Origin: a virus
Length of the DNA stretch: 34,404 bases
IMG/VR virus record: IMGVR_UViG_3300022413_000006
Location: 1 to 34,404 of that record
Reading direction: 5' to 3' (one strand)
In this document: one piece after another, positions 7,671 to 34,404 of the stretch
Layout of the letters: every line of letters starts with the position of its first letter
How positions within the stretch are numbered: the stretch's first letter is position 1
Made by a program: the position numbers and the translations under genes
Notes under the pieces: model-generated
Databases searched by the model: none
The model's input: the letters and a program-made list of their open reading frames with translations, nothing else
What the model was told of the DNA's origin: nothing

Positions 7671-7671
7671 A

Positions 7672-7944: not shown

Positions 7945-7945
7945 G

Positions 7946-8206
7946 TTAATTTTCTCCTGTTTCGTATTTTTCGTTGAAATATTTTATGAATTCCTTGACA
8001 TCTTCAACTGTCCAAACACAGCTCCCTCTTAGGCCAGGATATGACTGGATCACTTGCCCTGCTTGATCAAAGTGAGCAAAAACATTTGGCCTTGGGAGCT
8101 TTCGTTTCTCAGATATGTATTTGCTGATCTCATATTCCATCCTATTGATAGACCAGCCTCTATCATGAGCCATCTTAACTAAGGTGTATTGCAGTGGATT
8201 TTCCAT
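7946..8206 (-). CDS. Hypothetical protein (86 aa)
   Basis: No family recognised. The first 30 residues are helical (YTLVKMAHDRGWSINRMEYE). A Pro-rich basic link (EKRKLPRPN) and a C-terminal helix (TVEDVKEFIKYFNEKYE) follow. A helix-turn-helix-like reading of the N-terminus is possible but weak. The ATG at 8206 has an AAGGGAT SD and overlaps the upstream gene by 28 bases. Confidence 0.65.
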   Translation of the reverse strand: MENPLQYTLVKMAHDRGWSINRMEYEISKYISEKRKLPRPNVFAHFDQAGQVIQSYPGLRGSCVWTVEDVKEFIKYFNEKYETGEN

Positions 8207-8583
8207 GGTTCGTAATCCCTTTCAGGTATCTCGTTTTCAGCTCTCACGCATAGGTGAGAAAGTCTTAACTCATTAACAAAAGGAATGAAAACAGCCTTTA
8301 CTGACATATTTTTTGGCAGGTTTTTGTCAAGAAAAGTCAACTCGTCTATCCATTCGTTGTACTTGACGCCAGCCTTTGTCACTCTTCTAAGGTCTGTCAT
8401 GCAGTAACCTCTCTTCTTGAGTACATTCCTGAACCTGTTTCTTGAGTAGCGTCTATTCTGTGACTCTCTAAGTCTGTGACGCTTTTCAGGGACCTCCTCC
8501 AGTGAGGGGAATGGCCTTATATTGAAGAACAGTTCAACAGTACCAAACAGTCGAGTGCAATCGATATTGATATCATTCTTCAC
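8179..8583 (-). CDS. Hypothetical protein (about 134 aa, GTG start)
   Basis: No family recognised. The protein is basic, with a Lys/Arg-rich centre (EKRHRLRESQNRRYSRNRFR) and a beta-like end containing SVKAVFIPFVNELRLSHLCV. The frame is open up to 8694, but that part lies opposite the upstream gene's coding sense and has no SD. The GTG at 8583 (or 8589) follows GGAGG and overlaps the upstream stop by 11 bases, which fits the packing of this operon. The start is therefore uncertain by two codons. Confidence 0.6.
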   Translation of the reverse strand: MKNDINIDCTRLFGTVELFFNIRPFPSLEEVPEKRHRLRESQNRRYSRNRFRNVLKKRGYCMTDLRRVTKAGVKYNEWIDELTFLDKNLPKNMSVKAVFIPFVNELRLSHLCVRAENEIPERDYEPWKIHCNTP

Positions 8584-17425: not shown

Positions 17426-18262
17426 ATGGCAGTCGTAAATCTAAAACAAGAACTATGGATGGCGACTATTGTCACCTTGCTTGAAAAAGCGAGTACGGCA
17501 ATGGCTACCTCCAACACAAATATTGTTCGTGGCAAAGGTGCGGATACATACCACATCATTGGCACGGCAGAAGTGACAACCCAGGATACTCCTGCAGTTG
17601 GAACAGCAATCACATACTCCGAAGTTAGTGACACGAATACTGACTTCCTTCACAACTTGGACAAGACGTTCGGGATTGTGATTCCAGACCGAGACAAGTT
17701 AGAGTCTATGTCTGGCTGGGAAGCGTTGTATTCTCAACGTGGCGGTTACCAGTTGCGCAATGACTTTGATGTCGCTGCTCTTGGTGATCATGCAACGTGG
17801 ACTGACGCTACTGGCGTACCTACGACCGTTGGAACTGATGCTTCTGGAATTCCAGACTTCTACTCCTCGATCGCAGAGCAGCTGGACAGCGCAGACCTTC
17901 CTCCTGAAGGACGTTATGTCATCGTTAATCCTAACGTAATCCAGGCCACTCGTCTGTGGCTTGCTGCTAAGGGCACTGTCCTTGGTGATCAGGTTAGCAT
18001 TAATGGTTTCGTGACCAGGATCTTCGGAATGGACGTTCTGATGTCCCGAAATCTAACGACAGTTACTACTACTGTTCACGGTCGTGCAGGCGTGTATGGT
18101 GAAGGTGTAGCTGCAAATGTACTTGGTGTTCAGGAAATTGAAATGCTCCGAGACAAGGATGAGTGGAATAGTTATATCCGTGGTCGTTTGATTGCTGGAT
18201 ACAAGACTTATGCCGCTGCTCGTGTCTTTGACGTTTCGTTCGAAGATCAAGTGCTTGCGTAA
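17426..18262 (+). CDS. Major capsid protein, copy 1
   Basis: A 278-aa HK97-type capsid protein candidate. It opens with MAVVNLKQELWMATIVTLLE and has the V-T-T-Q-D-T-P-A-V-G-T-A strand motif near residue 50 and the GWEALYSQRGGYQLRND helix region near 97. SGIPDF at 140-145, the RYVIVNPN strand near 163 and the IRGRLIAGYKTYAAARVF end (251-268) complete it. This order is common in major capsid proteins that follow a GP20-like scaffold. A near-identical-length paralogue follows. By hand, 191 of 278 positions match without gaps (about 69%). Confidence 0.85.
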   Translation: MAVVNLKQELWMATIVTLLEKASTAMATSNTNIVRGKGADTYHIIGTAEVTTQDTPAVGTAITYSEVSDTNTDFLHNLDKTFGIVIPDRDKLESMSGWEALYSQRGGYQLRNDFDVAALGDHATWTDATGVPTTVGTDASGIPDFYSSIAEQLDSADLPPEGRYVIVNPNVIQATRLWLAAKGTVLGDQVSINGFVTRIFGMDVLMSRNLTTVTTTVHGRAGVYGEGVAANVLGVQEIEMLRDKDEWNSYIRGRLIAGYKTYAAARVFDVSFEDQVLA

Positions 18263-18353: not shown

Positions 18354-19190
18354 ATGGCTGTTGTAAACCTAAAACAAGAGTTGTGGGCTGCCACAATAGT
18401 AACGCTTCTTGAGAAGACGAGTACTATTGTTGGTGTCTCCAACAGAGATATAATTGAAACTGATGGTGCAGATACTTACCGAATAGTTGGAATTGGTGAA
18501 GTCACTACTCAAGATACTCCTGCCGTTGGCACTGCAATTACATATTCACAAGTTACAGACACGAATCAGAGCTTCACGCATAACGTGGACAAGACATTTG
18601 GGATAATCATCCCAGATAGAGACGTCTTAGAGTCTATGGAGGGATGGGAGGCTTTGTATTCTCAACGTGGTGGGTATCAGTTAAGGAATGAGTTTGACGC
18701 TGCTGCGTTAGGTGATTTTATCAACTGGTCCAGTACTACTGGAGTTCCTACAACAGTGGGAGCGGATGCGTCTGGGATTCCAGACTTCTTCTCTTCCTTG
18801 GCTGAGAATATGGATAGCGCAGATCTTCCTGGAGGAGGAAGGTATATTATCGTCAATCCAAGTATGGTTCAAGCATTGCGGATATGGTTCGCTGATAAAG
18901 GAACTGATATTGGTGATGACGTTAGTGTTAATGGTGCTGTAGCAAATGTGTTTGGAATCGATGTATTCATGTCTAGGAACCTCACTAATCTAACTGGTAT
19001 AGATCAAGGTCTTGCTGGGGTGAAGGGGCAGGGTATAGCGATTAACGTGCTAACGCCAGATCTAATTGAGACGCTAAGAGATAAAGATGGTTGGGAAAAC
19101 TATGTTCGTGGACGCTTGATTGCTGGTTACAAAACGTATCAGTCAGATCGAGTATTCAGAGTTGCTCATGGTGACAACGTATTACAGTAA
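18354..19190 (+). CDS. Major capsid protein, copy 2 (paralogue)
   Basis: A second 278-aa capsid protein, aligning end to end with copy 1 without gaps. Conserved blocks include the first 20 residues but one, VTTQDTPAVGTAITY, LYSQRGGYQLRN, SGIPDF and RGRLIAGYKTY. Differences concentrate in residues 22-40, 122-129, 210-220 and 234-240, likely exposed loops. DNA identity is clearly lower than protein identity, so the duplication is not recent. Both keep all blocks, so both are probably functional: a mixed capsid, a pentamer/hexamer split, or a decoration role. It has its own strong SD. Confidence 0.85.
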   Translation: MAVVNLKQELWAATIVTLLEKTSTIVGVSNRDIIETDGADTYRIVGIGEVTTQDTPAVGTAITYSQVTDTNQSFTHNVDKTFGIIIPDRDVLESMEGWEALYSQRGGYQLRNEFDAAALGDFINWSSTTGVPTTVGADASGIPDFFSSLAENMDSADLPGGGRYIIVNPSMVQALRIWFADKGTDIGDDVSVNGAVANVFGIDVFMSRNLTNLTGIDQGLAGVKGQGIAINVLTPDLIETLRDKDGWENYVRGRLIAGYKTYQSDRVFRVAHGDNVLQ

Positions 19191-19637: not shown

Positions 19638-20750
19638 ATGGAAGAACCTTTGAAAGATTTAAGGGAGGAAGTAAACTGGCATAAGTCAAGTTTTATTCCT
19701 GTCTTATTGAAGTCGAGGGATAAAATACAAGCAGCTATTGCTGATGCAGCTAAGAAAAGATCTTTTGCTGCAAGCAGGAGTGAGCAGAGAAAGCTTTATG
19801 ATCGTATAATCCGAGAATACGAGATCATGGCGGAACAAATAGACAAAATAATTAAGCGCGGTGTTGTAAGGACATCTACTTCCTTTCGTAAGGTTGCGAA
19901 GAATGACCTTAAACAGTCGTCCTTACCTAGTTCCAGCGCATTGATACCCAAGTTCAGCGATGATCTTGTCTCGGATTGGTTTCGTGAGATAGGAATAGTT
20001 GATGGAGGTCGCAAAGGCGTTAATGCTACTCCATTGGCAGCTGTGAAAACAACAAATATGGCCAGGTCTGATATACGTCAAATCCGAACAGTCGTATCAA
20101 GCGTATTGGCTGAAGCGGCTCTTACCGGATTAACATCTGCGCAGATCTCAAAAGCTATGAGAGAGGCTGTATCTCCTCTTTCAGATACAAAAGCCTTGGA
20201 TTCCTGGAAATTCATTGACAAGTCAGGCAAGAGATGGACCAAGAACAACTATTTCAACATGGTTGCTCGAACTGTACCGGCCACAATCTCCAGGGAGGCA
20301 TACAAGGAGAGTATGATCTCTGCAGGTGTAGAGTTGTTTGAACAGACAGGGAAGAAGGAAGATTTGATAAGGTTTGATTTGGCAGAGATTACGGGTGGAA
20401 GTCAGCCTTGCCCTATATGTGCTCGTTGGAGGGGCGTTATCATCTCTATCTCTGGTGCGAATAAAGACTTCCCAAGTTTACAGGACGCGCTTGATGCAGG
20501 CGTGTGGCACCCAAACTGTGTATGTTCACACGCATATGTGGATATGGATCTGGAGAAGTCACGGGTTGAGTCTCAATCCAAGTTAAAGAATCCATCAAAG
20601 CCTACTCCTGAAGAGTGGAATAGGTATGCTGATGAAGTCCAAGCTCGTGCCAAGGATGATGTGAAGACTGATGCTGATCAAGGCGTGATCAAGAGTGCAG
20701 GGAAGAAAGACTCTTCAATAAAAGCTCAGGCAACAGTGAAGAGGAAATAA
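19638..20750 (+). CDS. Minor capsid/head morphogenesis protein (Mu gpF/SPP1 gp7-like)
   Basis: A 370-aa protein. The C-terminal half contains the Phage_min_cap2/Mu F-like signature: ARTVPATISREAYKESM near 210-226, then QPCPICARWRGVIISIS (Cys-x2-Cys) near 256-272 and GVWHPNCVCSHAYVD (His-Pro-Asn-Cys) near 289-303. The C-P-I-C and H-P-N-C pairs probably bind a metal. The N-terminal 130 residues are helical and basic. In related phages this protein is present in few copies per virion and may travel with DNA. The stop shares a base with the next start (TAATG). Confidence 0.78.
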   Translation: MEEPLKDLREEVNWHKSSFIPVLLKSRDKIQAAIADAAKKRSFAASRSEQRKLYDRIIREYEIMAEQIDKIIKRGVVRTSTSFRKVAKNDLKQSSLPSSSALIPKFSDDLVSDWFREIGIVDGGRKGVNATPLAAVKTTNMARSDIRQIRTVVSSVLAEAALTGLTSAQISKAMREAVSPLSDTKALDSWKFIDKSGKRWTKNNYFNMVARTVPATISREAYKESMISAGVELFEQTGKKEDLIRFDLAEITGGSQPCPICARWRGVIISISGANKDFPSLQDALDAGVWHPNCVCSHAYVDMDLEKSRVESQSKLKNPSKPTPEEWNRYADEVQARAKDDVKTDADQGVIKSAGKKDSSIKAQATVKRK

Positions 20751-21232
20751 TGACCACATACATTATGGACACATCTATAGCTGATGAAAAAGTTAAGACT
20801 GACATTGCAAGGCTTCGTCGTCTAACTCCAGCAGGAGTTCGTGTTGCCAACTTTAGAATAGGGCAGATAGTAAAATCAGAAGCCAGGAACAACGCGCCTA
20901 TATCTCCTAAGCAATCTCAAATAGCACAGAGAAATAAAAGTGGTAAAACAAAGCAGAAGGTTACTCCTGGTGGATTGCAGAGATCTATAAGAGTTATGGA
21001 AGTGAACGAAAAGTATGTAGATATTGGAGTTCCAAGTAATTCAGAAGCTGGATCTTATGCAAGGAAAATACATGACTTTAAAGGGGTTGATTGGCATAAT
21101 AGGGGTGTAGGAACAGTGGCGAAAGGTCCTCAAGCTGATGAGAAGTTTATATCGAGAGCAATTCAAACCAAGCTGTCAGCAATCAGGAAGGTCTTTGAGT
21201 CAGAGATTAGAAGAGTACTGGACAAATTGTAA
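20750..21232 (+). CDS. HK97 gp10-like tail completion/neck protein (160 aa)
   Basis: Resembles the HK97 gp10 family: an N-terminal helix (RVANFRIGQIVKSEARNNAP) leading to A-P-I-S-P, a Lys-rich link, then GGLQRSIRV and VDIGVPSNSEAGSYARKIHD. Near the end FISRAIQTKLSAIRKVFESE matches the usual F-x-x-x-A-x-(x)-x-K pattern. Family members join head and tail. It starts in TAATG overlap with the upstream gene and ends in the same way with the next, a coupled block. Confidence 0.68.
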   Translation: MTTYIMDTSIADEKVKTDIARLRRLTPAGVRVANFRIGQIVKSEARNNAPISPKQSQIAQRNKSGKTKQKVTPGGLQRSIRVMEVNEKYVDIGVPSNSEAGSYARKIHDFKGVDWHNRGVGTVAKGPQADEKFISRAIQTKLSAIRKVFESEIRRVLDKL

Positions 21233-22389: not shown

Positions 22390-22554
22390 ATGGCATCAAA
22401 AGAGAAGAAAGAGCCAGAGCAAGTGTTCTACCACGGCAAGCACAGCTGTATGGAGCAATCAGATCGAAATGTAGAGATAGATAAGGCGGTGTACGAAGAT
22501 GAAGCTGAAGATAGAACCAAAGCCGCTAAACGATCTGGCAAAGCAGACAATTGA
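22390..22554 (+). CDS. Small tail assembly chaperone-like protein (54 aa)
   Basis: A short highly charged protein (MASKEKKEPEQVFYHGKHSC, then EQSDRNVEIDKAVYEDEAED and a Lys/Arg tail), with an AAAGG SD eight bases upstream. It sits between the major tail protein and the 240-aa protein and overlaps the latter by 56 bases. Phages of this type often encode two overlapping chaperones here, sometimes joined by a frameshift. The downstream frame is -1 relative to this one and open from 22481. No standard slippery heptamer is visible in the shared region. Confidence 0.58.
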   Translation: MASKEKKEPEQVFYHGKHSCMEQSDRNVEIDKAVYEDEAEDRTKAAKRSGKADN

Positions 22555-23221
22555 GAAGTCTAAACTTGACCATGGCTTGACATGGGATCTATACGAGGAC
22601 TTTGAACGGGTATTAGAGCTCCACTTGCTTGGTGAAGAAGTTACATGTCCATCAGATTGTGATGAATGTGCGAAACTATTAGACCTTCCTTTTGTTGTAT
22701 CTGGCATTGAATTCCGCAGGCTCACAGGTGGAGCTCTTCTGTGGCTCCAAGAAGTAGCAGCTGACGCATTTCCAGAAGGATCAGTTATTGGCCAGTATGC
22801 TATAGGGTTCGCTATGGCACATTCCTATGATCAGGAAGTGTTTTACGAACTATGCACAAAAAAACTGGCTGTCAAGGCTGTAAAAAAGTGGATGAGGAAG
22901 AATCCTCTCAGCATGGACCACTTGGCACTTGTTTTTCAAGCTCTACTATCATCGTCATCTGGAGGCGATGAGCCAAAAGGTCTTAATATGATCCCCTTCT
23001 ACGATGGTATTATTTCTCAGTATGGCAAAAGCTTGAACTATTGGAAGTGGCATGTCCCTCATGAAGTGGCGACAATGCTTGTTGATGCCATGTTTATTCG
23101 AAAGGCGAGAGAGCAGGGGATAAAAGATACAGAGAATCCTTACTCTCAATACATGACAGCTGATAGAGCGATGTGGAAAAGAGAGCAGCAAATCATAGCG
23201 GAGAAATGCGATGCCGGATGA
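22499..23221 (+). CDS. Putative tail assembly chaperone (240 aa)
   Basis: A mostly helical 240-aa protein just before the tape measure, the place of the G/GT-type chaperones that hold the tape measure during tail assembly. Notable are a Cys cluster VTCPSDCDECAKLL near 49-62, KAVKKWMRKNPLS near 127-139 and a polar end with MWKREQQIIAEK. The ATG at 22499 has no good SD, so translation probably depends on the overlapping 54-aa gene, by re-initiation or -1 frameshifting. Its stop overlaps the tape measure start by 11 bases. Confidence 0.55.
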   Translation: MKLKIEPKPLNDLAKQTIEKSKLDHGLTWDLYEDFERVLELHLLGEEVTCPSDCDECAKLLDLPFVVSGIEFRRLTGGALLWLQEVAADAFPEGSVIGQYAIGFAMAHSYDQEVFYELCTKKLAVKAVKKWMRKNPLSMDHLALVFQALLSSSSGGDEPKGLNMIPFYDGIISQYGKSLNYWKWHVPHEVATMLVDAMFIRKAREQGIKDTENPYSQYMTADRAMWKREQQIIAEKCDAG

Positions 23222-24626
23222 AGAGCTAAAATACAGGCTTAGAACAGAGGATGAGACTGAAAAAGGTCTCAAAGAATCTGAGAGAAGTCTAAAAGCTTTC
23301 AGTCGCAAGGCTGGGGACATAGCTAAGGGTATTGGCAAGGCATTCGTTGGCGCTTTTGCAGCTGCATCAGCTGGTATTGCTACGTTTGTTGGCTTGTCTA
23401 TCCCAAAATTCCTTAAGCAGCAGCGTGCGATAGGTGATGTTTCAAGGGCTCTCAAGCAAGTAGGTGTTGACGCTTCGTCAAGAGTCCCAGAATTAGAGAA
23501 GTTTGCATCAGCGATACAGGATATAACAGGTATAGGAGATGAGGATTTACTTGGTCTTCAATCAGAGGCTCTGCGCAAAGGTTTAGATCCAGCAGCAATA
23601 GAAGAATTTACAATTGCAGCTGTTGGGCTTGCTTCCCAAATAGGTGTAGAGCTTCCAACAGCTTTCGATTTGCTTACCAAATCAGCGAATGGACAAACTG
23701 AAACACTTAGTAGATATGGCATAGTTGTAGATCAATCTCTCGACACTCAAGGGAAGTTCAATGAGGTCCTTAAGCAGGGCCAGGAAGGTTTTGCGCTAGC
23801 TGCTGAAGACTCTGAAGACCTTGGGAAAAGACTTGAAGCCCTTAAGGGAAGGTGGGGAGATCTTCAAGAAGCTGTGGTAGAGGCTGTCTCAGGTATTACA
23901 GGTGATGGAAGTGACGGGATCACTCTTATTGAGAACCTTATCCTTGATGCTACTGATGCGGTAGGGATATGGGCAGAGGCTTGGGGTGAATGGGCAGACT
24001 TTGCAATGAAGGCCATCGGCTCTGTTGGTGGTGTCCTGCAAAGCTTTGGAGATAGGATAGCAGGCTTCTCCGCTATACTTGGAGCTCTGTCAGCAGGTTC
24101 AAGTTTTTCAGAGGCATTGGAAATTGCAAGAGGACAAGTTGGTGAGAGGATCTCTGCAAGGGAACAAAGAGGGAGTCGTATTGCTGAAGCAAGGGAGAAT
24201 GCTCGTAGGCGTAGAGAGCAGAGATTGGCAGATAGTAACCAAGTGGTAGCTGATGCTTTAGCTCAAGGTGATGTTGTATCTGTCAATGCTATAGCTGCCA
24301 AGAATAAGGACAAGGTAGCCAAGGAAGATAATAAGGCCAAGCAAAAGGAAAGACTCCGCAAAGTTGTGGAGGATATCTCCATACCATCTTTGGTCCGAGA
24401 AGAAATTGCAGCGAGTCCTACTGAGTCAGCTATAGATATTGGAGACATATCTCTATTCAATAGAGGAGCAACTTCGATCAGGAATATAAGCAGGTCTCTT
24501 GGATCCTCAAACCTTGGTCAAACAGTTGAAGAGCTTGCGGCAAAGGAGAACAAGAAGAATATCGCAAAGACTGCTGAAGGTATTCAGGAGCTAAACAAGA
24601 AGATAGGAGCGGCGAGTATAACATAA
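23211..24626 (+). CDS. Tape measure protein
   Basis: A 471-aa protein. Helical N-terminus (LKESERSLKAFSRKAGDIAK), then an Ala/Gly-rich hydrophobic segment (AFVGAFAAASAGIATFVGLS, near 48-67). SRVPELEKFASAIQDITGIG and TAFDLLTKSANGQTETLSRY follow, the latter resembling the conserved tape-measure core found in many siphoviruses. A second hydrophobic stretch and a charged C-terminal coiled coil (ISAREQRGSRIAEARENARR) follow. At roughly 0.15 nm per residue, the usual rule, the tail would be about 70 nm. The stop overlaps the next start (TAATG). Confidence 0.82.
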   Translation: MPDEELKYRLRTEDETEKGLKESERSLKAFSRKAGDIAKGIGKAFVGAFAAASAGIATFVGLSIPKFLKQQRAIGDVSRALKQVGVDASSRVPELEKFASAIQDITGIGDEDLLGLQSEALRKGLDPAAIEEFTIAAVGLASQIGVELPTAFDLLTKSANGQTETLSRYGIVVDQSLDTQGKFNEVLKQGQEGFALAAEDSEDLGKRLEALKGRWGDLQEAVVEAVSGITGDGSDGITLIENLILDATDAVGIWAEAWGEWADFAMKAIGSVGGVLQSFGDRIAGFSAILGALSAGSSFSEALEIARGQVGERISAREQRGSRIAEARENARRRREQRLADSNQVVADALAQGDVVSVNAIAAKNKDKVAKEDNKAKQKERLRKVVEDISIPSLVREEIAASPTESAIDIGDISLFNRGATSIRNISRSLGSSNLGQTVEELAAKENKKNIAKTAEGIQELNKKIGAASIT

Positions 24627-24985
24627 TGGCTGTAACTGGTGGAGAGAGTGATGGTTATAAGCTGGATAGCTGGGCTGAGTCTATCGAGTATAGGGAGGTG
24701 TCTACTGATGGCACTGAAGAGAATACCAAGCAGCAGGAGAGAGAGAATAAGACTTTCAGAAGAACTCAAATTCATTTCTCAAAGAATGCTGCAATAACTG
24801 CAATCTCTGCTGATACAGGCTCTACTATAGTGAGCCCAAGCGCAAAGATATCAGATGGAACTACAGCAACAGCTACAGGAACATGGATTATAGCGTCCCA
24901 TGAGTTTATTGATGGTGCTCCTGGAGAAGGAAAGATAATTGAGAGACAGGTGTTGAAGCTGTTCTCTTCGTGGTCGGATTCGTAA
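24626..24985 (+). CDS. Tail protein of unknown role (119 aa)
   Basis: No family recognised. N-terminal acidic and polar part with coiled-coil-like EENTKQQERENKTF. The C-terminal half is rich in Thr/Ala/Ser strands (GTTATATGTWIIASHEFID). By position after the tape measure it is probably a distal tail or baseplate part. Start and stop both overlap neighbours in TAATG, so it is made as part of a coupled block. Confidence 0.6.
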   Translation: MAVTGGESDGYKLDSWAESIEYREVSTDGTEENTKQQERENKTFRRTQIHFSKNAAITAISADTGSTIVSPSAKISDGTTATATGTWIIASHEFIDGAPGEGKIIERQVLKLFSSWSDS

Positions 24986-25599
24986 TGGGTGATGTATCAA
25001 ATAGTGAGTTTGGGCAGTATTCAGCAGTAGATGATTTTGTCGTTGTCCCTAAGCAGTTTGTAAATGATGTGTCCCGAGTACTTGAGCTCATCAATAATGC
25101 TCGTGGTCAGAACGGCATAAACATCGACACCACTGGTGATGCCATGGTGATCTCTGGCAGAAGAGGCAGCGGACAAGATTTTAGCAAGTATTCTTTCAGT
25201 TGGCTACTAACCCAGCCGACTGTATCAACTGATGCAAAAGTGACTCTAAGAAAGGGTTATGTTGAGCATCATGGATATGACCCTATCACTAGCACAGCAA
25301 AGACCTTGTATACCCCCTCTACTGAGGTCGAGAGAGATATAGATACTACTGGGTACTATGTATTTGTCATCAGGTATACTCTGTCTACGAATGTAGTATC
25401 AGTGCCACTGCCTTTATTCCATGCAACAGATGCAGAAATGGCCTTAGATCTTGCAGTAGATACATCAGCAGCGCTACTAAAGCCGATAATAACAGTTCAT
25501 CTGGATTTAGGTACATCTCCAGGTGTATTAACTTTGGAGCACGTGCATAATGCGCCAGGCAATAATATATTTCTGCCTCCTGTTTTTATTCCAACTTGA
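24985..25599 (+). CDS. Tail/baseplate protein (204 aa)
   Basis: No family recognised. Starts at MGDVSNSEFGQYSAV in TAATG overlap with the previous gene; an upstream GTG would add five residues. It has a helix KQFVNDVSRVLELINNARGQ, then beta-rich sequence with a Gly/Arg segment (SGRRGSG), suggesting a fibre-base or receptor-binding-protein carrier. The last 50 bases overlap the signal-peptide region of the next gene. Confidence 0.6.
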   Translation: MGDVSNSEFGQYSAVDDFVVVPKQFVNDVSRVLELINNARGQNGINIDTTGDAMVISGRRGSGQDFSKYSFSWLLTQPTVSTDAKVTLRKGYVEHHGYDPITSTAKTLYTPSTEVERDIDTTGYYVFVIRYTLSTNVVSVPLPLFHATDAEMALDLAVDTSAALLKPIITVHLDLGTSPGVLTLEHVHNAPGNNIFLPPVFIPT

Positions 25600-26758
25600 T
25601 GTAAACGCACAATGGTCATCCAACTTATGGCCAGCAGCATCTAATTGGTTTGTGAGTGGTCAAAGTGTCTATGAATTGAATCAGGCATTGAGTGAAAGGT
25701 ATGAAATCATCAATGGTGTTGAGTGGACCAACAAGATGACAAATGCTCCATTGTGGGTATCCAGAACCCATCTTATGGATATAGAGGATGAATGTTTCTT
25801 GATGTTTAACTCTTTCATTGACCCTGACAAGGCTGATGCTGGAGGAATCTTCTTTGATGATCATTTTTCAACCAATACATCTATGCCTGTGTACAATTCT
25901 ACAAGACGAGATGAAATAATTGGTGGTGCTACTGGAATAACCAATGGAGAAACCGGTGCTGACGGATGGTGGGTGAGCAGGAAAACTCTAGATGCATTGA
26001 AAGCCATGATTGATGCAATGAAATGGACGGGTGAAGAGGACTCGTATGTTGTAGAGACCAACTATAATACAGTTATTAATGGCAGGACTATCTTTTCATC
26101 AAATGTATGTACATTCACTCATGAAAATGTTTCTCAAACATGGGCTGATGAATTTCCTTCATATCTTGCAACATACACTAATGGGCATGATTCTGTTCAC
26201 ACAAATTTATTCACAGGTATTTTCAATGCAAAATATAGAGTATCTATGACATTTGCTCTTTGCCCAGGAGGTTCTAACGATTTAATAGAGATTAATGATG
26301 GTCAGCCAGCTCTTACAGATAATATTTATGGGATAACATACCAGTCAGTAATTTCTCAGTCAGGGCAAACAAATTATTCTCCAGGGTATATAGTTTATAA
26401 TATGGTTGAGACAGCAAATGTATTCACAGTTTCATCTGATACATGTGTGACCGATGCTCATGGAGCTATAACAAATGTTTGGCCGGAAGGTGACGGAGTG
26501 TTTAATCGATTTACAAATTCATCTCTCGTTGCTACTGTGGATGTAGGGTCTGTTACAAATATGTTGATATCAACTTTACCAATAGAGACATTAGAACCTA
26601 TAGAGCCAAAAATTAATGCAGGGCCAAATGGAGCTAATTGCACATATGCTGTTAAGGCTGGATCTACTTATGTTGCAAATTTTACGTCTGCCGGAAGGCT
26701 GTCAAAATCCATAGTTAAATGGGACGAAGGGCCGACACCATTTCTTTACATCGAATAA
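25550..26758 (+). CDS. Large secreted-like virion or surface protein with signal peptide (402 aa)
   Basis: Begins with a textbook secretion signal: MRQAIIYFCLLFLFQLDVNA, with probable cleavage after Val-Asn-Ala (residue 20). The rest is rich in Asn, Thr and aromatic residues (NLWPAASNWFVSG, WTNKMTNAPLWVS, TGADGWWVSRKTLDALKAM) and looks beta-rich. No enzyme motif is visible. By position it is a tail-tip or adhesin protein, yet the signal peptide implies export through Sec. Alternatives are an exported cell-surface protein, or a start further in at a later Met with the signal read as noise, which is unlikely given how good it is. Confidence 0.62.
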   Translation: MRQAIIYFCLLFLFQLDVNAQWSSNLWPAASNWFVSGQSVYELNQALSERYEIINGVEWTNKMTNAPLWVSRTHLMDIEDECFLMFNSFIDPDKADAGGIFFDDHFSTNTSMPVYNSTRRDEIIGGATGITNGETGADGWWVSRKTLDALKAMIDAMKWTGEEDSYVVETNYNTVINGRTIFSSNVCTFTHENVSQTWADEFPSYLATYTNGHDSVHTNLFTGIFNAKYRVSMTFALCPGGSNDLIEINDGQPALTDNIYGITYQSVISQSGQTNYSPGYIVYNMVETANVFTVSSDTCVTDAHGAITNVWPEGDGVFNRFTNSSLVATVDVGSVTNMLISTLPIETLEPIEPKINAGPNGANCTYAVKAGSTYVANFTSAGRLSKSIVKWDEGPTPFLYIE

Positions 26759-26768
26759 AGGTGACCAC

Positions 26769-29700
26769 ATGAAAAACCTAGCTGCAACAATAATGATACT
26801 GTTAGCATTAGTCGCATTAATGGCTTTTGCCTGCAGTGCTGTTTCTGCCCCAACATTCCAAGTGGATTTGGATTCACAGAAGCCAGAAAAGAAGTGGAAG
26901 ATACCAGCTGCATTTGCTGGATCTACGCCTACCTACCGAACAATCCTTAAGGAAAACGGTATTTTGTTCACAAATCTTACTGGTTGGGATGGTGTGATGC
27001 ATATCTTCACCAATTCTACTGATAATACTTCATGGCAGTTCCCTTCAACTGGATCTGGAACTGGATATTTTGATTTTCGTATAGAGCTAAACCTTGAGCC
27101 GGACAGTTACAGGTCTGAGTTTAGATTCACTAATTCAGTTGATGGGATAGTATGGGGTGCGCAAGGGCGCATAGAGGTAGAAGACTCTCCTTCTGGCGGC
27201 TTGCTGTCAACTAATAGCTTGTTTGGCACTCTCAACTTCGACAACTTTATTCAGTCTGGAACTATTTCAAGCAATGTTAACGTAAATGCGAATCTTGCTG
27301 GTAGTGGTGCATTACTTACAGATCTCAATCTTGGAGCTATTGGTGATGTAATCCAGGTAGGAACCCCTGCTGCTTGGTTGGATTGGAATTGGCCTACTGT
27401 GTATGAGAGAGATTCTCATGTCTATTTCGGATATGTCGGGTACACAAATGACCAGTATGTTGCAAGGTACAGCATAGCCTCTAACACTGTTGATGTGAAG
27501 TTCACAGGTGACAAGTGGGGTCACGATTCCCATAACTCACCTGTTGTGTATCATGACGGAACAAATATTTGGATTGCTCAAACTGGTCATAATGGTGGCC
27601 CAACTGTCCAGATTGGAGTCTTTACAAATTGGGCTGATGTAACAGATCTCGATATTCCGCAATATCGCCTCACAAATGATGATGTTGTAACCTACTGCAA
27701 CATGGCTCCTTTGAAGGACAGGATGTATCTAATGCAGAGGCTTGGAACTAGTAACTACATTTACAGATTTAGTACAGATAGTGGTGCAACATGGAGTGAT
27801 GATAAGTTGTGGCTTCACAACTCTCAAGATAATGGCCGTCCATATCCACAGATGAGAGAAGGCTTGCTGAGGGATGAGATCTTATTCCCTGTCCATGGTC
27901 ATGTTGCAATTACAAACAACAGTGATATCCATGTTGGCGTCATTAAGCATGAGGCTGGTGATCATAGGTTTTACACTAACTCTACTGGTTTCTTTGTTAT
28001 GGATGGAACAGAGCCTGTAATTGAAATGACAAACATATATTCTGCTGTTCAAACAACTTCAACGAACAGCTTATACCTAAATGATATTATCGATATAGAT
28101 ACTACTGACGGGCTTGCTTTGCTTTATACAAGGTTTGACTCAACGTTTGGTGGAGACACAAAAAATCCAAGAACGATGGTAAGTACTGGCTCTATAGATG
28201 GAGCTTGGGTTGAGTTTGATCTAGGATCTCAAGGGGTGCATTTTGGAGATAGCAGGATATCAAACAACGTTCCTTGGGCTGCTTTTGACCGTCGTACTGT
28301 TAATCCACTTCGAGTGTGGTCTTCAAAGAATGATCCAGAAAATGTGGCTCAGATGTTTGAGTTAAAAAATGGATCATGGACTCTTCAATGGCAGGGTCCT
28401 GAAACAGAAAACTTTTGGTGGAAGCCTCGTGGAGTAGCTAATGCTGATCAGTCTGGAGTCATGTATCTAGACAACTCTGATCATATTGAGTTGTACCCAT
28501 ATTTTTCATCATTCAAGCCAACACGTCCTTGGATTGTATTGGACAGAATAACTAATGGGAAAAGAATGCTTCCTGTCGCTTCTAACCCATGGGAGCTTTA
28601 TGGTCAGCACGGGGAACAGGCTGTATTTAATAGCGGATCAAAGGATGGGCCTATAGCAACTATTGGTGGTTTGAGAACAATGACCACTGACGGAGCTATG
28701 CTTCAAATCACTAATAAAGAGAACGGTGTAGTCTTTAGAGTTGCTGAAGACGGCCATACTCAGGTTGGTGATGTGCATAGCACATTTGACCCAACTGATA
28801 GACTTGTTTTCACATCATCTCCTGAAGGAATTAGAATGTTAACTGATGATGTGAGGATGATAGATATTTATTCATCTTCTATTATCATTAATGAGGCTGG
28901 AGAAGATAGAAACTTCCGTGTTGAGACGGATAACGATATATCTGCATTGTATGTAGATGGCGGAACAGATGAAGTTGGTATTGGAACAACAACTCCTGCC
29001 AGCAAGTTGGAAGTTGTGGGCACTGTTACAGCAACAGCATTCGTTGGTGATGGTTCAGGACTGACAGGTCTTCCAGGAGGTTCTGGAAGCTGGGATCATA
29101 CCATGACTCAAACTGTATCTGGAGCAGGATTCAATATTGAAAATCTTGGGTCTCTTACCATAACTAACATTGCAGATGCTTCTATTCTTTTAGCAGCTGA
29201 TTCGAATAATTCTGGCGAAAACGACAACGCTCTATTTGAGCTTTCCCAAGATGGTGGTGGAGTAAGAGCATTAATTGGAACTGTTGGAGATGCAGGTGTT
29301 CAATTCACAGACTCGCTTTCTGATTCATTGTATTTCGAGATTAAAGCAGGAAGTCCTCAAGATATACAATTCGCAACTGGCGCAACTGGAGTTACATCAA
29401 ATGACGGGGCAGCCAGGTTGACCATCCTTGGGACTGGAAACGTTGGTATAGGAACTGTAACTCCTTCAACAGAACTTCATGTTGATGGTGATATAACTGC
29501 GGACAACGTATTAGCCAGACTGCTTAATGTGTCTGATGCAACTGATGATCTGAGATGGACTGGTGTAGATAATTTGGAGATAAGGCACAATGGAGCCATT
29601 AACCATCAATTTAGCGGAGCATCTACCGTTTTTAATCAAGGTGGGCTTGATATTAATTTCAGGGTTGAGTCTGATAATGATATACAAGCTTTATATGTGG

Positions 29701-31433
29701 ACGGTGGGACTGACGAAGTGGGTATTGGCACTACTACACCAGCTTCTAAATTGGAAGTGGTAGGTACTGTTACAGCAACTGCGTTTGTAGGAGATGGTTC
29801 TGGGCTGACTGGTCTACCAGGTGGATCTGGAGGGTGGGACCATGTTATGACAAACAATGTTGATGGTGCAGGTTTCTCGGTCACAAACATATCAAGCTTG
29901 GTTACTACTGGAACAGTTACTGCTGGATTTTTTGTTGGTGATGGATCAGGTCTTACTGGTCTTCCTAGTGGCGGAAGCGCTTCTGGCATTGTCGTTGTTG
30001 CAAAAGCTTCTGATGAGATTGTTAACAATAGTACAACATATCAAGATGATGATGAGCTTGTAATACCTTTAGAGGCTAACACTTCATACGGAATGGATGC
30101 TCATCTATTGATAGCAGCTCATGCTAGTGCTGATATGAAGATTCAGTTTACTGCTCCTTCTGGAGCAACAGTTAGAGGTAATGGTCCATCATCCTCTGTG
30201 CTTACTGAGAACGATTTGACAGCAACACAATTCCAAGCACTTGGAGGGACTGCATCAAGACGGATCAAGTTCTTCAGAGGAACTGTGAACGTTGGTGCTA
30301 CAGCTGGCAACCTTGTTGTTCAATGGGCTCAAAACACAGCTCATGCATCTGACGCTACGATGTTCTCCAACTCATGGGTTTCTATCACAAAACTTGATGG
30401 AAGTAATTTTGTTGCAGTGCCTGGTGGAGTTGAGGCTGATCCTTCTTTCACGGCATGGACAAATACTGAGTCTACTGCTGGAAGGATGCTTCAGAATCCC
30501 GGAGACTCTAATGATGAGATTTCGTGGCTAACTACTGATACTCTTCAAATTCAGCACAACTCTGTTGTCAATCATAGGTTCTTATCCAACTCAACAATTT
30601 TCAATGAGACTGGTGCTGATATCAACTTCAGAATCGAGTCTACAACTAGTCCACATGCTCTCTATATAGATGGATTGAGTGGCCTGGTAGGAATAGGCGC
30701 ATCGTCTCCTGCTTCAGCATTCGAAGTGGTTGGTACTGCAACAGTTACAGCTGTACATGGAGACTTTGAGAATTCAAGTGATGCAACTGATGATGTAAGG
30801 TGGAATGGAGTAGATAATCTAGAAATACGTCATAATGGAGCTCTAACGCATCAGTTCTCAAGCTCTTCTACTGTACTCAATCAAGGAGGGTTGGATATCA
30901 ACTTCCGTGTTGAAACAGATACTGATGCGCAAGCCATCTATGCTGACGGTGGAACTGGGAATGTCGGGATAGGGACTACAAGTCCATCTAACAAGTTGGA
31001 AGTGGCTGGGTCCATAACTGCAACATCATTTGTAGGAGATGGCTCTACGATTACCAACAGGCGTAAGGGTGTTCAGATGATAATTGTTGACTTTACGACA
31101 CAGGTCACTGTGGGTGACGGCAAGATGTACTTTCACATTGATCCGTCTCTGGCGGGTATGAATCTGGTTGATGTGCATGCTGAAGTTATCACTGCAGGAA
31201 CTACTGGAACAACAGATATCCAAGTCCACAACTTGACACAAGCTGCAGACATGTTGACTACAAAGCTGACAATAGATTCAGCAGAGACTGGCTCGGATAC
31301 TGCTGCAACTCCTGCTGTTATAGACACAGCAAATGATGATGTTGCCGAGAATGATCTTATCAGGATTGATTGCGACGCAGTGTCGACATCTGCTCCACAA
31401 GGATTATTGGTTACACTGGGATTTAATGACTGA
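26769..31433 (+). CDS. Giant tail fibre/depolymerase-like protein with signal peptide, BNR-type propeller and repeats (1554 aa)
   Basis: Residues 1-27 form a signal peptide (cleavage probably after SAVSA). About 190-585 resembles a BNR_4-type beta propeller, the fold of several polysaccharide lyases and sialidase-like enzymes. KWGHDSHNSPVVYHDG and IAQTGHNGG (about 248-276) recall the H-x-x-P and H-N-G-G part of that fold. From 690 to 1410 it has repeats centred on V-G-I-G-T-T-x-P-x-x-K-L-E-V-x-G (Val at 736, 892, 984, 1307, 1399) and G-D-G-S-G-L-T-G-L-P linkers, typical of trimeric phage fibres. A distinct beta domain lies near 1075-1225 and another at 1425-1554. The likely role is binding or cutting host surface glycans. 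No S74 chaperone peptidase is seen. Confidence 0.7.
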   Translation: MKNLAATIMILLALVALMAFACSAVSAPTFQVDLDSQKPEKKWKIPAAFAGSTPTYRTILKENGILFTNLTGWDGVMHIFTNSTDNTSWQFPSTGSGTGYFDFRIELNLEPDSYRSEFRFTNSVDGIVWGAQGRIEVEDSPSGGLLSTNSLFGTLNFDNFIQSGTISSNVNVNANLAGSGALLTDLNLGAIGDVIQVGTPAAWLDWNWPTVYERDSHVYFGYVGYTNDQYVARYSIASNTVDVKFTGDKWGHDSHNSPVVYHDGTNIWIAQTGHNGGPTVQIGVFTNWADVTDLDIPQYRLTNDDVVTYCNMAPLKDRMYLMQRLGTSNYIYRFSTDSGATWSDDKLWLHNSQDNGRPYPQMREGLLRDEILFPVHGHVAITNNSDIHVGVIKHEAGDHRFYTNSTGFFVMDGTEPVIEMTNIYSAVQTTSTNSLYLNDIIDIDTTDGLALLYTRFDSTFGGDTKNPRTMVSTGSIDGAWVEFDLGSQGVHFGDSRISNNVPWAAFDRRTVNPLRVWSSKNDPENVAQMFELKNGSWTLQWQGPETENFWWKPRGVANADQSGVMYLDNSDHIELYPYFSSFKPTRPWIVLDRITNGKRMLPVASNPWELYGQHGEQAVFNSGSKDGPIATIGGLRTMTTDGAMLQITNKENGVVFRVAEDGHTQVGDVHSTFDPTDRLVFTSSPEGIRMLTDDVRMIDIYSSSIIINEAGEDRNFRVETDNDISALYVDGGTDEVGIGTTTPASKLEVVGTVTATAFVGDGSGLTGLPGGSGSWDHTMTQTVSGAGFNIENLGSLTITNIADASILLAADSNNSGENDNALFELSQDGGGVRALIGTVGDAGVQFTDSLSDSLYFEIKAGSPQDIQFATGATGVTSNDGAARLTILGTGNVGIGTVTPSTELHVDGDITADNVLARLLNVSDATDDLRWTGVDNLEIRHNGAINHQFSGASTVFNQGGLDINFRVESDNDIQALYVDGGTDEVGIGTTTPASKLEVVGTVTATAFVGDGSGLTGLPGGSGGWDHVMTNNVDGAGFSVTNISSLVTTGTVTAGFFVGDGSGLTGLPSGGSASGIVVVAKASDEIVNNSTTYQDDDELVIPLEANTSYGMDAHLLIAAHASADMKIQFTAPSGATVRGNGPSSSVLTENDLTATQFQALGGTASRRIKFFRGTVNVGATAGNLVVQWAQNTAHASDATMFSNSWVSITKLDGSNFVAVPGGVEADPSFTAWTNTESTAGRMLQNPGDSNDEISWLTTDTLQIQHNSVVNHRFLSNSTIFNETGADINFRIESTTSPHALYIDGLSGLVGIGASSPASAFEVVGTATVTAVHGDFENSSDATDDVRWNGVDNLEIRHNGALTHQFSSSSTVLNQGGLDINFRVETDTDAQAIYADGGTGNVGIGTTSPSNKLEVAGSITATSFVGDGSTITNRRKGVQMIIVDFTTQVTVGDGKMYFHIDPSLAGMNLVDVHAEVITAGTTGTTDIQVHNLTQAADMLTTKLTIDSAETGSDTAATPAVIDTANDDVAENDLIRIDCDAVSTSAPQGLLVTLGFND
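29442..29717 (+). repeat. 92-residue fibre module, copy 1 (partner at 30687-30962)
   Basis: Encodes residues 892-983: V-G-I-G start, then S-D-A-T-D-D-L-R-W, VDNLEIRHNGA, HQFS, NQGGLDINFRVE and YVDGGT. Residues 1307-1398 (30687-30962) repeat the same order at the same length. Partial copies precede residues 736 and 1307. DNA copies differ at many silent positions, so the protein is kept while the DNA has drifted. Confidence 0.75.
30687..30962 (+). repeat. 92-residue fibre module, copy 2
   Basis: Second full copy of the module at 29442-29717, residues 1307-1398. VDNLEIRHNGA and LNQGGLDINFRVET are nearly the same as in copy 1. The region right after V-G-I-G differs most. Confidence 0.75.
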
Positions 31434-33094
31434 TGAAATACTCTAAAGCATTACCGTCATATCTGATTGCTGCTCTGTTATCTTCATGTGAGGCTGTTAC
31501 AGCAGGAACGTTCTTCTGTGAGTTCGACTCCAGGCCAGGGCTGAATGTAGGGGCTCAGCAAGGTGTGTGTACAGATGGTACCAACTTCTGGACTACAGCA
31601 GGAGATGATCCAGACACTGATCCAGCATCAAACAACCATAATATGATGCTAAGGCGTTATGACTCGTCATGGACTATAGTAGCTTCTAATGACGTCATCG
31701 CAGATCTTCCAGGTGATGCCACACAGATTAATGGCCTGGAATACAAAGACGGCGTTGTTTACGTTGGTGTCAATGACCACGTTTCAGGATCTCAGAATGG
31801 GAATGGCGGATGGATAATGGAGTATGATCCTGTCACTCTAACCAATCTTGCTACTCATACAGTTCAGACCAAAGAATGTGAAGGTGGAGCTTGGGGAGGA
31901 GCGGCTGGAACAAACTTTCTTGCTGTCTACCATAACTCTAGAACGGTTAGTGTATATAACTCATCCTTTACATTCATCTCTGATCATTTCCTTGACTACC
32001 CAAACGATGTTGGGCGGTATTATCAGGATGCAGCATGGCATGACGGTCACTTGTTCTGCCCGGTTCACAATAGCGCTCAGTGGCCTCATACTGTTGACGT
32101 GTACAAATGGGAGGGTGAGACCAACTTTGTACGTGCTGGAAGGATGCTACAACCTACATGGGAGAGATCAGCAACTCTGAGAAAGTCTTCTCAAGGTTTA
32201 GATTTTGATCCTGTAGAGAGCGGTGTTATATGGTTTGCTGAACGAAACGCTGGAGGAGGAGAGAGTGAAGGTCCTCATAACGTAGTAAAGGCGACTTTCA
32301 ATGCTACAGCACACCCAGATAATGAAGTGTTTTCGAACGCTGTACAGAATCTGGACAATCTATTGTTCTATCTTCCACTAAGAGAGACTACAGGAACAAA
32401 TTTAGTTGACAATTCAGGCGCTGGTAATGATTTCACATTAAGGGTTAGTGACACGTATGATCTTGATGTGTGTGGAGACATACTTGGTCCTACGTATTGC
32501 GAGAAGGGCCGTGGTGTCGCTCTTAGCGAGAAGGCTTACCTGCACCATCCTAATGAGGCTGAATTCAACTTCACGTCGTCTGACAGCTTCTCATTTGGCA
32601 TGTTTGTCTTTAGGCAGCATGCGATTGACAACAATGAATGGATTCTTAGCAAGGGAATAGGTGGAGACTCTCCGTCAGGGAACAATCACAACTATGCTTT
32701 GCTGATTGATTTGACGACTCCTGTAAATCGGTTTGACTTCCTTATGGAGGAATCTGATGGAACAGACCATGTCTGCAAGTCAAATACCACTGTAGAGGAG
32801 GGTAAGGCATACTTTGTAGTGTGTGTCTATGACGGATCATCTACAAATATGAGCATTTACGTCAACGGAGTTCTTGACGGAACAAACAATGATCAATTTA
32901 CAGTCAATACAAATGTTTATGATCTGACATTCAACGCTGCAAGTAATGGAGATAATGGAGGAATAGATCAGACAGCTGTAGGTCTATTTGAGCCATTTAT
33001 GACATCTGACGTCTTAACCGGTGCTGAGATATCTGCTTTATGGGCTAAGTCTAAGTCAACTAAAGATTTTGTGCAAAGATCCATAGCATATTAG
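31433..33094 (+). CDS. Propeller plus LamG-like lectin protein with lipoprotein-type signal (553 aa)
   Basis: The N-terminus MKYSKALPSYLIAALLSSCE has a lipobox Leu-Ser-Ser-Cys (Cys19), so it could be lipid-anchored; an alternative is signal-peptidase cleavage after AVTA. Residues 25-300 contain repeated short strands with Trp/Tyr (TDGTNFWTTAGDD, YKDGVVYVGVND, TNFLAVYHNS), like a beta propeller. Residues 310-545 resemble a LamG/concanavalin-like jelly roll: LDNLLFYLPLRE, FSFGMFVFRQHAI, AYFVVCVYDGSSTNMSIYVNG, then a final helix. Such domains bind glycans. It starts within the stop of the giant fibre (TGATGA). Function is probably glycan recognition, either on the virion or on the cell surface. 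Confidence 0.62.
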   Translation: MKYSKALPSYLIAALLSSCEAVTAGTFFCEFDSRPGLNVGAQQGVCTDGTNFWTTAGDDPDTDPASNNHNMMLRRYDSSWTIVASNDVIADLPGDATQINGLEYKDGVVYVGVNDHVSGSQNGNGGWIMEYDPVTLTNLATHTVQTKECEGGAWGGAAGTNFLAVYHNSRTVSVYNSSFTFISDHFLDYPNDVGRYYQDAAWHDGHLFCPVHNSAQWPHTVDVYKWEGETNFVRAGRMLQPTWERSATLRKSSQGLDFDPVESGVIWFAERNAGGGESEGPHNVVKATFNATAHPDNEVFSNAVQNLDNLLFYLPLRETTGTNLVDNSGAGNDFTLRVSDTYDLDVCGDILGPTYCEKGRGVALSEKAYLHHPNEAEFNFTSSDSFSFGMFVFRQHAIDNNEWILSKGIGGDSPSGNNHNYALLIDLTTPVNRFDFLMEESDGTDHVCKSNTTVEEGKAYFVVCVYDGSSTNMSIYVNGVLDGTNNDQFTVNTNVYDLTFNAASNGDNGGIDQTAVGLFEPFMTSDVLTGAEISALWAKSKSTKDFVQRSIAY

Positions 33095-33129: not shown

Positions 33130-33555
33130 ATGAGCACAACTATATTCGCAGATGAGCCAAAGGGTACTGGGGGCGGTCAATCTGGTAGAAGGCGGAGGAT
33201 TGAAACATCCCTTGGTCCTCCCTTAAAAAAGATTAACCTTGGTGGCCTTACATTCGTAACATCAGCTACTACTTTGATAGCTCTTGTTTCTGGTGGTGTA
33301 TGGATAGGACAGCAAGTTGAACACTACAAGTCATTAACAGCTGACAGATGGACAGGGAAGAATGAGATAGAGGCTGAGTATCTTCGTTCTCTTAAGAATA
33401 GAGATTATGTCCCTATGTCAAAAGCTGAGATACTTGCCATACAAGGTCCAAAAAGAACTCACACTTATCACCAGGTAGATCCAATAATTTTCCCTTCTCT
33501 AGTGCCATCTTCTGTGGCAGCTGAAGTTGACTCTAAGGCAAAAGATGAGGACTAA
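33130..33555 (+). CDS. Single-pass membrane protein, lysis-cluster candidate (141 aa)
   Basis: The basic N-terminus (GRRRRIETSLGPPLKKIN) is followed by one membrane helix at about 37-59 (LGGLTFVTSATTLIALVSGG), then about 80 residues that should face the periplasm, opening with a helical segment (QQVEHYKSLTADRWTGKNEI). The N-in, C-out topology and location beside an Rz1-like gene make it a candidate inner-membrane spanin or holin partner; family not recognised. Its 3' end overlaps the 35-aa gene by 11 bases. Confidence 0.62.
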   Translation: MSTTIFADEPKGTGGGQSGRRRRIETSLGPPLKKINLGGLTFVTSATTLIALVSGGVWIGQQVEHYKSLTADRWTGKNEIEAEYLRSLKNRDYVPMSKAEILAIQGPKRTHTYHQVDPIIFPSLVPSSVAAEVDSKAKDED

Positions 33556-33652
33556 GAGACCAGAGAATCCATTGCTTAAGTGGGGATTCAAACTTCTGCT
33601 CTTCTACGCAGCCTTCGTTCTTTTTCATTCAGTCTTCTCTAGATACCTATGA
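33545..33652 (+). CDS. Tiny single-helix membrane protein (35 aa)
   Basis: MRTKRPENPLLKWGFKLLLF then YAAFVLFHSVFSRYL: a basic cytoplasmic start and one membrane helix (about 13-31). It overlaps the upstream gene by 11 bases, and its stop overlaps the next start in ATGA (33649-33652), so all three genes are coupled. The tight packing is the main evidence that it is real. It may be a holin, pinholin or lysis accessory; this is inference. Confidence 0.58.
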   Translation: MRTKRPENPLLKWGFKLLLFYAAFVLFHSVFSRYL

Positions 33653-34164
33653 CTAAGAGAGCTCCATCGTTAGAAAAGATACAGACACTTAAAACGTTCT
33701 ACGAAGAGTGCGGTTGCTGTGAGGATAGAGATGTAGTCCAAAAGATTTATTCCTTCTCTGAGATGTTTGAATGGCCTAAGTGGATGTCAAACGTGATACT
33801 TACTGCGTACGAGTGTGGTTACCATCATATCAGCGACGGGATATCACATCCATTTGGCTGGCAGTATGGAGCGCAGTTTCTTCATCTAAAGAAGTCTCAC
33901 ATAGGAGTTGGTCATGACCTGCTTTACTACCTATCAAAGGAAGAGAAGGAGAGGCTGGGATTCCCAACAACAAAGGTAGGGGCCGATAAGTGGTTCAGAG
34001 ATGCTTTGGAAGAGAGCGGTGTTGTTGGTGTTCGCGCAGAGATAGCGTACAAGGTATTGATCTTGGTAGGATTCTTTGCGTACGCAGACCACGCGCTACG
34101 TCGCAGAACAGGTTCAGGTTACGGTACTATAGACTATGTCTACTTAATGGTTGAGGAGCTCTAA
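33649..34164 (+). CDS. DUF1353-like protein in the lysis region (171 aa)
   Basis: Contains a patch typical of DUF1353-like phage proteins: HISDGISHPFGWQYGAQF, HIGVGHDLLYYLSKEE (His-Asp), GADKWFRDALEESGV (Ala-Asp) and AYKVLILVGFFAYADHALRR. The conserved His and Asp residues could form a metal or catalytic site. The family's role is not settled, though members are often encoded near holin or endolysin genes. As no standard endolysin is visible elsewhere, this is the best candidate for a lytic enzyme by position, with low certainty. It overlaps the opposite-strand lipoprotein gene by 21 bp. Confidence 0.58.
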   Translation: MTKRAPSLEKIQTLKTFYEECGCCEDRDVVQKIYSFSEMFEWPKWMSNVILTAYECGYHHISDGISHPFGWQYGAQFLHLKKSHIGVGHDLLYYLSKEEKERLGFPTTKVGADKWFRDALEESGVVGVRAEIAYKVLILVGFFAYADHALRRRTGSGYGTIDYVYLMVEEL

Positions 34165-34290
34165 CTGAGCCATGTAAACTACTGTTCCGTCGTCTACAGG
34201 AACTTTATTCAGTATGCTTTCTCTGTATGGTACAGTGCTACATCCACAACAGAAAAATGCCATCGTTAACAGTACAGCTATTTTCTTCAT
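34144..34290 (-). CDS. Rz1-like small lipoprotein (outer-membrane spanin candidate, 48 aa)
   Basis: MKKIAVLLTMAFFCCGCSTV is a lipoprotein signal with Gly-Cys-Ser at 16-18, followed by about 31 residues (VPYRESILNKVPVDDGTVVY and so on). The upstream positions of the lipobox are Cys-Cys, not the usual Leu-Ala, so processing is likely but not certain. Length and form match Rz1-type outer-membrane spanins. A GGGAGG SD precedes the ATG (34288-34290). In the circular genome it is the last gene of the leftward operon and reads into the end of the DUF1353-like gene. The partner spanin may be the 141-aa membrane protein. Confidence 0.66.
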   Translation of the reverse strand: MKKIAVLLTMAFFCCGCSTVPYRESILNKVPVDDGTVVYMAQLELLNH

Positions 34291-34404
34291 CTTAAGGTCC
34301 TCCCAATGAATGATGTGTTGTTGCTGATTGTTTGTGTCGTATTTACTTGTCTCTGTCTTTTAAGCATAATCCTTTGCCAGCTAGCATCTTGACAGAAAAG
34401 AGCG
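34278..34404. repeat. Right copy of 127-bp terminal direct repeat
   Basis: Identical to 1-127. Joining the copies yields a circle in which the leftward operon continues from position 66 into the Rz1-like gene. It should be removed from one end in a circularised record. Confidence 0.95.

Follow-up and report, generated by a model that had tools for sequence, protein, structure and literature searches.

The nearest published proposal to the arrangement described here is the patatin cassette of phage WO, in which a phospholipase A2 (PLA2)-type enzyme is encoded beside a small holin-like protein with one transmembrane (TM) segment (PMC9203015). The genome of phage WO has no endolysin, and a lytic role for the cassette has been proposed, not proven (PMC9203015). 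Its enzyme is of the patatin family, which is unrelated to DUF1353, the cassette has an additional ankyrin protein, and the host is Wolbachia, in which no peptidoglycan has been detected (PMC9203015). PLA2 activity within the DUF1353 family is known from TtaP, where it was proven by a fluorescence assay and lipid HPLC and was abolished in a D85A mutant (PMC11525133). TtaP is distantly related to the group XIV enzymes and has a catalytic His and Asp, with a further Asp beside the His; the TtaP islet also encodes a muramidase related to prophage muramidases (PMC11525133). No earlier proposal of DUF1353 in phage lysis was found in the literature searched. The phage locus analysed here resembles the phage WO cassette in pairing a PLA2-type enzyme with a small one-TM holin-like protein, and it differs in that the enzyme is a DUF1353-type protein; no patatin-family serine phospholipase was matched by Pfam in the present genome.

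The window, 34404 bases long, spans an entire virus record, which is complete and carries a 127-bp direct terminal repeat (copy 1 at 1-127, copy 2 at 34278-34404, no strand). Because this repeat stands at both ends, the record, a circularly complete assembly, may be treated as a 34277-bp circle. The families recognised in the genome were TerL, portal, scaffold, capsid, MuF-like, tape measure (weak) and LamG, together with the replication and nucleotide families primase-helicase, RecT, exonuclease, RecU-like resolvase and thymidylate kinase, one DUF3127 protein and one SSB-type PHROG match. The major capsid protein (MCP) genes form a tandem pair (17426-18262 and 18354-19190, 69% identical). Searching with the MCP for related viruses returned nothing beyond one identical fragment. 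An 11-kb viral contig, L002 (IMGVR_UViG_3300022201_000019), encodes TerL and MCP proteins 100% identical to those of the present phage; it probably represents a separate assembly of this virus and ends short of the lysis region. A LamG-domain tail-end protein with a lipoprotein-type signal peptide (31433-33094, plus strand) lies directly upstream of the cluster under study and adjoins it. Signal peptides open three consecutive tail-end proteins (25550-26758, 26769-31433 and 31433-33094), two of them lipoprotein-like, and are also found in the tail regions of both relatives described below (L188:317-2137 and L190:17213-18004). They are unusual on phage tail proteins and hint at export or surface anchoring.

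The late operon closes, at its very end, with three plus-strand genes in the order TM protein, TM protein, enzyme, joined by stop/start overlaps. The earlier note had described a one-pass membrane protein followed by a coupled 35-aa one-helix protein, and both ORFs are present where it placed them. The first (33130-33555) encodes a 141-aa protein with an Arg-rich N-terminus, one TM segment (about residues 35-60) and, after it, a predicted periplasmic tail of about 80 aa, a topology predicted to be holin-like or i-spanin-like. This protein had no family match in Pfam, PHROGs or NCBIfam and no close relatives in INPHARED. The second (33545-33652) encodes a 35-aa single-TM protein (MRTKRPENPLLKWGFKLLLFYAAFVLFHSVFSRYL), which is a holin-like candidate. 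Its gene overlaps the 141-aa gene upstream by 11 bp and the 171-aa enzyme gene downstream (33649-34164) by 4 bp (ATGA), and its translation is coupled with that of both neighbours. For the 171-aa gene, which is coupled to the 35-aa gene, no clear separate ribosome site is seen. Such an order, with small membrane proteins overlapping the gene of an enzyme where the late operon ends, is that of a lysis cassette. On an evenly balanced judgement, 33130-34164 could be a late lysis cassette whose enzyme position is taken by a DUF1353-type PLA2 and not by a murein hydrolase. Like the holin-endolysin-spanin cassettes of tailed phages, the cluster closes the late region and has one or more small TM proteins whose genes overlap that of the enzyme; unlike them, it has no recognised murein hydrolase and no supported pair of i- and o-spanins.

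A 48-aa lipoprotein-like ORF (34144-34290, minus strand), with a hydrophobic leader and a strong ribosome site (GGGAGG), overlaps the 171-aa gene by exactly 21 bp. This ORF had previously been read as an opposite-strand Rz1-like lipoprotein. The ORF, its strand and the 21-bp overlap were confirmed, whereas its identity as a spanin is unsupported. The leader contains FFCCGC, an atypical lipobox, and the best PHROGs matches, to Cor superinfection exclusion (E=0.09) and Rz-like spanin (E=0.23), are both non-significant and limited to the first 34 residues, which are mostly leader peptide. No i-spanin partner was found for it, nested or adjacent in the same operon, and the scanned proteins gave no Rz match except its own at E=0.23. 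The gene starts inside the terminal repeat (34290 equals position 13), so that on the circle a gap of 52 bp separates it from the stop of the minus-strand gene 66-266 that precedes it. Most simply, it is the last gene of a leftward operon that crosses the circular join, which also speaks against a spanin. The terminal repeat masks this continuation of the leftward gene run 66-2121 into the 48-aa gene.

We compared the 171-aa protein with DUF1353 families and profiles. Pfam DUF1353 (PF07087) matched it at E=0.0027, with 17.7-18.3 bits against a gathering score of 22.5 bits, and phrog_1158, which contains DUF1353 proteins, matched at E=0.001. A profile made from 60 phage DUF1353 proteins, with the 171-aa protein left out, scored it at 22.7 bits (E=1.8e-6 among the genome's own ORFs), while the best of 5000 shuffled copies of the protein reached 10.3 bits against the same profile. 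An alignment of 62 sequences has six invariant positions, G57, D63, S66, P68, H89 and D90 (171-aa protein numbering), and a further one, D113, that at least 90% of the sequences share; the 171-aa protein keeps all of them, and the same conserved residues were kept again in a 20-sequence alignment. The previous assignment as DUF1353-like is thereby borne out. Since the Pfam score falls under the gathering cut-off, we use the name divergent DUF1353-like protein. It has no signal peptide, and no close relatives of it were found in IMG/VR or INPHARED. Identity as a D-alanyl-D-alanine carboxypeptidase (3mfd, E=0.89) was rejected as a match at chance level. Residues 1-60 (33649-33830) are predicted at low confidence to be helical and include a Cys-rich stretch, CGCC; the canonical DUF1353 model, unlike this one, has a beta-strand N-terminus.

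The relation of DUF1353 to PLA2s was also recovered independently of the data in the TtaP paper. When the DUF1353 profile was searched against all PDB sequences there were six matches, four of which were PLA2s: 8k1w (E=0.031), 1faz (E=0.063), 7ygk (E=0.58) and 4aup (E=4.1). In the alignments listed, the HD pair and the later Asp of the profile aligned with the catalytic residues of these enzymes, which include the group XIV secreted PLA2s (1faz/1lwb and 4aup). An AlphaFold model of the 171-aa protein, made with DUF1353 sequences only as input, had pLDDT 76-92 in the block of residues 81-150. VIA-align ranked 8k1w, 7ygk, 4aup and 1faz, all PLA2s, first to fourth of 599 for this model, with modest Z scores (5.8, 5.5, 5.4 and 4.6, respectively) over 91-98 residues at rmsd 4.4-5.1 Å. 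Foldseek gave no significant match for the model against PDB or BFVD, and VIA-align listed no PLA2s for a canonical DUF1353 protein, whose model is of higher confidence. Given the modest Z scores and the Foldseek result, the structure backs the sequence evidence but cannot stand alone. The spacing from His to Asp is 24 in the 171-aa protein, similar to that of its best structural neighbours (about 22; 22 in 8k1w), and 15 in TtaP. The protein differs from the group XIV PLA2s in having no signal peptide and no match to PF09056 (group XIV PLA2) at E<=10. With TtaP it shares the DUF1353 domain, the His/Asp dyad with an adjacent Asp and the lack of a signal peptide (PMC11525133). It differs from TtaP in length (171 aa versus 125 aa), with a helical N-terminal part added in the model, and in that its gene belongs to a phage late operon.

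H89 and D113 are predicted to be the catalytic dyad, and D90 and D63 Ca2+ ligands. The conserved residues that are kept and the top structural ranks of PLA2s indicate that the His-Asp and Ala-Asp motifs form a PLA2-type site and not one of a murein hydrolase. The 171-aa protein very probably belongs to the PLA2 superfamily, and sequence and model together suggest that it would be active as such. The earlier note had proposed it as an undescribed lytic enzyme built on these two motifs. The core of that idea holds, as does the lack of a recognised standard endolysin; the enzyme type is not undescribed, as PLA2 activity in DUF1353 is already published (PMC11525133). With a DUF1353 member of proven PLA2 activity, the predicted substrate is the membrane and not the cell wall.

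Public annotation of DUF1353 (phrog_1158 / PF07087) is widely 'tail assembly chaperone' and otherwise mostly without a name. Read by its label, the phrog_1158 match at E=0.001 would make the 171-aa protein such a chaperone. Tail chaperone genes usually stand immediately before the gene of the tape measure. The 171-aa gene lies 9 kb downstream of the tape measure, and the usual chaperone slot is taken by 22499-23221. The label thus conflicts with the gene position in the present phage, and it conflicts with the PLA2 activity proven for a member of the family (PMC11525133), whose catalytic residue set is intact in the 171-aa protein; we consider a chaperone function highly improbable.

We searched the genome for a cell-wall enzyme by comparing 52 called proteins with Pfam, 50 of them with PHROGs and ten late proteins with NCBIfam; two proteins at 19638-21232 were compared with Pfam only. 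No peptidoglycan hydrolase was found in the 52 proteins by Pfam, in the 50 proteins by PHROGs among the matches listed (25 of 32 families in one tally), or in the ten late proteins by NCBIfam. The same scan found lysozyme, GH108, M15 peptidase and holin families beside DUF1353 in other phages, which shows that the method works. Within these scans, the earlier statement that the genome has no lysozyme, amidase, transglycosylase or peptidase motif was upheld. A standard endolysin domain in the tape measure or tail proteins, which had been named as the observation that would overturn it, was sought and none matched; a murein hydrolase concealed in these proteins was accordingly rejected, there being no Pfam, PHROG or NCBIfam match. 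That the genome is without any murein hydrolase at all is quite conceivable, although we lean towards doubting it. An older claim holds that some Verrucomicrobia and Planctomycetota are without peptidoglycan, and it is contested (PMC5303756). The host is not established here, and we dropped a peptidoglycan-free host as an argument.

These null results bear on a different reading, in which the DUF1353 PLA2 is an auxiliary, spanin-like outer-membrane factor and the true endolysin is a divergent protein encoded elsewhere, for example at 24626-26758. Several late proteins of the present phage have no family match and could hold such an enzyme, and DUF1353 stands beside an annotated murein hydrolase or PGRP protein in FNU1, Bjorn, phiPMW, Carin1, Dulem virus 31 and NrS-1. 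Against a hidden endolysin are the absence of murein hydrolases from the Pfam, PHROGs (matches listed) and NCBIfam scans and the position of the DUF1353 gene, which itself follows directly on those of the small membrane proteins. We regard this reading as a serious possibility that nevertheless falls short of being probable.

Relatives of the phage were sought with TerL among genome contigs. The scan gave, with TerL identities in brackets, a Verrucomicrobia MAG (48%) and a 34-kb contig in an Alphaproteobacteria MAG (47%), with further relatives in two Planctomycetota MAGs (39% and 38%). The 34-kb contig (G002:C68; loci L188/L189) encodes a 141-aa basic membrane protein (7272-7697), and its gene overlaps that of a 250-aa DUF1353 protein (7687-8439) by 11 bp. 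This DUF1353 protein matched our 60-sequence profile, which excludes it, at E=3.2e-7 and retains the residues at the positions of D63, H89, D90 and D113. Pfam recognised no murein hydrolase among the 23 proteins scanned from this contig, which is without the capsid region. The arrangement of a membrane protein and DUF1353 with no recognised endolysin is repeated in this one relative. A membrane-protein/lipoprotein cluster is present in the Verrucomicrobia prophage (G001:C117), and neither DUF1353 nor a recognised endolysin was found among 20 of the prophage's proteins; the latter result would fit an unrecognised cell-wall enzyme shared by these phages, as a hidden endolysin would require. Single-sequence searches of the four cluster proteins gave no match in the two related contigs, and their comparison with the fetched loci gave nothing except weak DUF1353 matches. 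Next to its holin-like gene, at L190:14858-15295 (minus strand), the Verrucomicrobia prophage also has a gene for an exosortase-like membrane protein (PF09721, E=9e-7, above cut-off).

DUF1353 is widespread in phages, with at least 558 confirmed loci in the IMG/VR scan. An annotated murein hydrolase, PGRP protein or 'peptidase' lies at most two genes from DUF1353 in 7 of 21 GenBank phages (FNU1, Funu2, NrS-1, Carin1, Bjorn, phiPMW and Dulem virus 31), a sample made up of matches to one query that is itself near an amidase, and in which many neighbours carry no annotation. No annotated endolysin was near DUF1353 in the other 14 of the 21 phages inspected. Among 55 IMG/VR neighbourhoods, murein hydrolases and a holin were present in a small minority, which suggests that the association with lysis is confined to some DUF1353 sub-lineages. 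With an association this weak, DUF1353 is not exclusively a lysis gene.

The neighbourhoods also bear on a role at the start of infection, in which the PLA2, associated with the virion or a fibre, would breach the host envelope. The 171-aa gene stands shortly after the tail-fibre genes, and DUF1353 is near tail-fibre-type genes in several Campylobacter and Vibrio phages. Parvovirus capsids are known to carry viral PLA2s that are used in entry. However, lysis cassettes typically show the kind of coupling to two small membrane proteins that is seen here, and the 171-aa protein has neither a tail-protein domain nor a signal peptide. An entry function appears improbable to us, and a role of the 171-aa protein in lysis, not entry, is reasonably likely.

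If the cluster does act in lysis, the 171-aa enzyme, having no signal peptide, would build up in the cytoplasm, where low free Ca2+ would hold it inactive. At the time of lysis the 35-aa membrane protein, the 141-aa membrane protein or both would permeabilise the inner membrane, and the opened membrane would let the enzyme reach Ca2+ and the envelope. There it would cleave inner- and outer-membrane phospholipids to lysophospholipids, and the envelope would collapse. The peptidoglycan step might be supplied by an undetected divergent enzyme or by host autolysins, or there may be little stress-bearing wall. Group XIV PLA2s are Ca2+-dependent, and from this and the conserved D63 and D90 we infer Ca2+ dependence of the 171-aa enzyme. 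The PLA2 activity, the gating by Ca2+ and the holin function are all things that we infer. In its strict form, lysis would be endolysin-free, with a tiny holin releasing a Ca2+-gated DUF1353 PLA2 that destroys both membranes; we put this forward tentatively, as an unlikely but explicit model.

If true, endolysin-free lysis of this kind would be a second, independently evolved type of phospholipase-based lysis beside the one proposed for phage WO, and it would be shared by a phage group with Verrucomicrobia and Planctomycetota contigs among its nearest TerL relatives. If DUF1353 proteins are lysis phospholipases, a widespread phage family would gain a function, and phages without spanins would have a candidate for their outer-membrane step; the question raised for phage WO, a phospholipase in place of an endolysin, would also be open to direct test in laboratory E. 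coli. A DUF1353 PLA2 could provide the outer-membrane step in phages that have an endolysin as well. A lysis role of DUF1353 would also offer a reason for TtaP adjoining a prophage-type muramidase.
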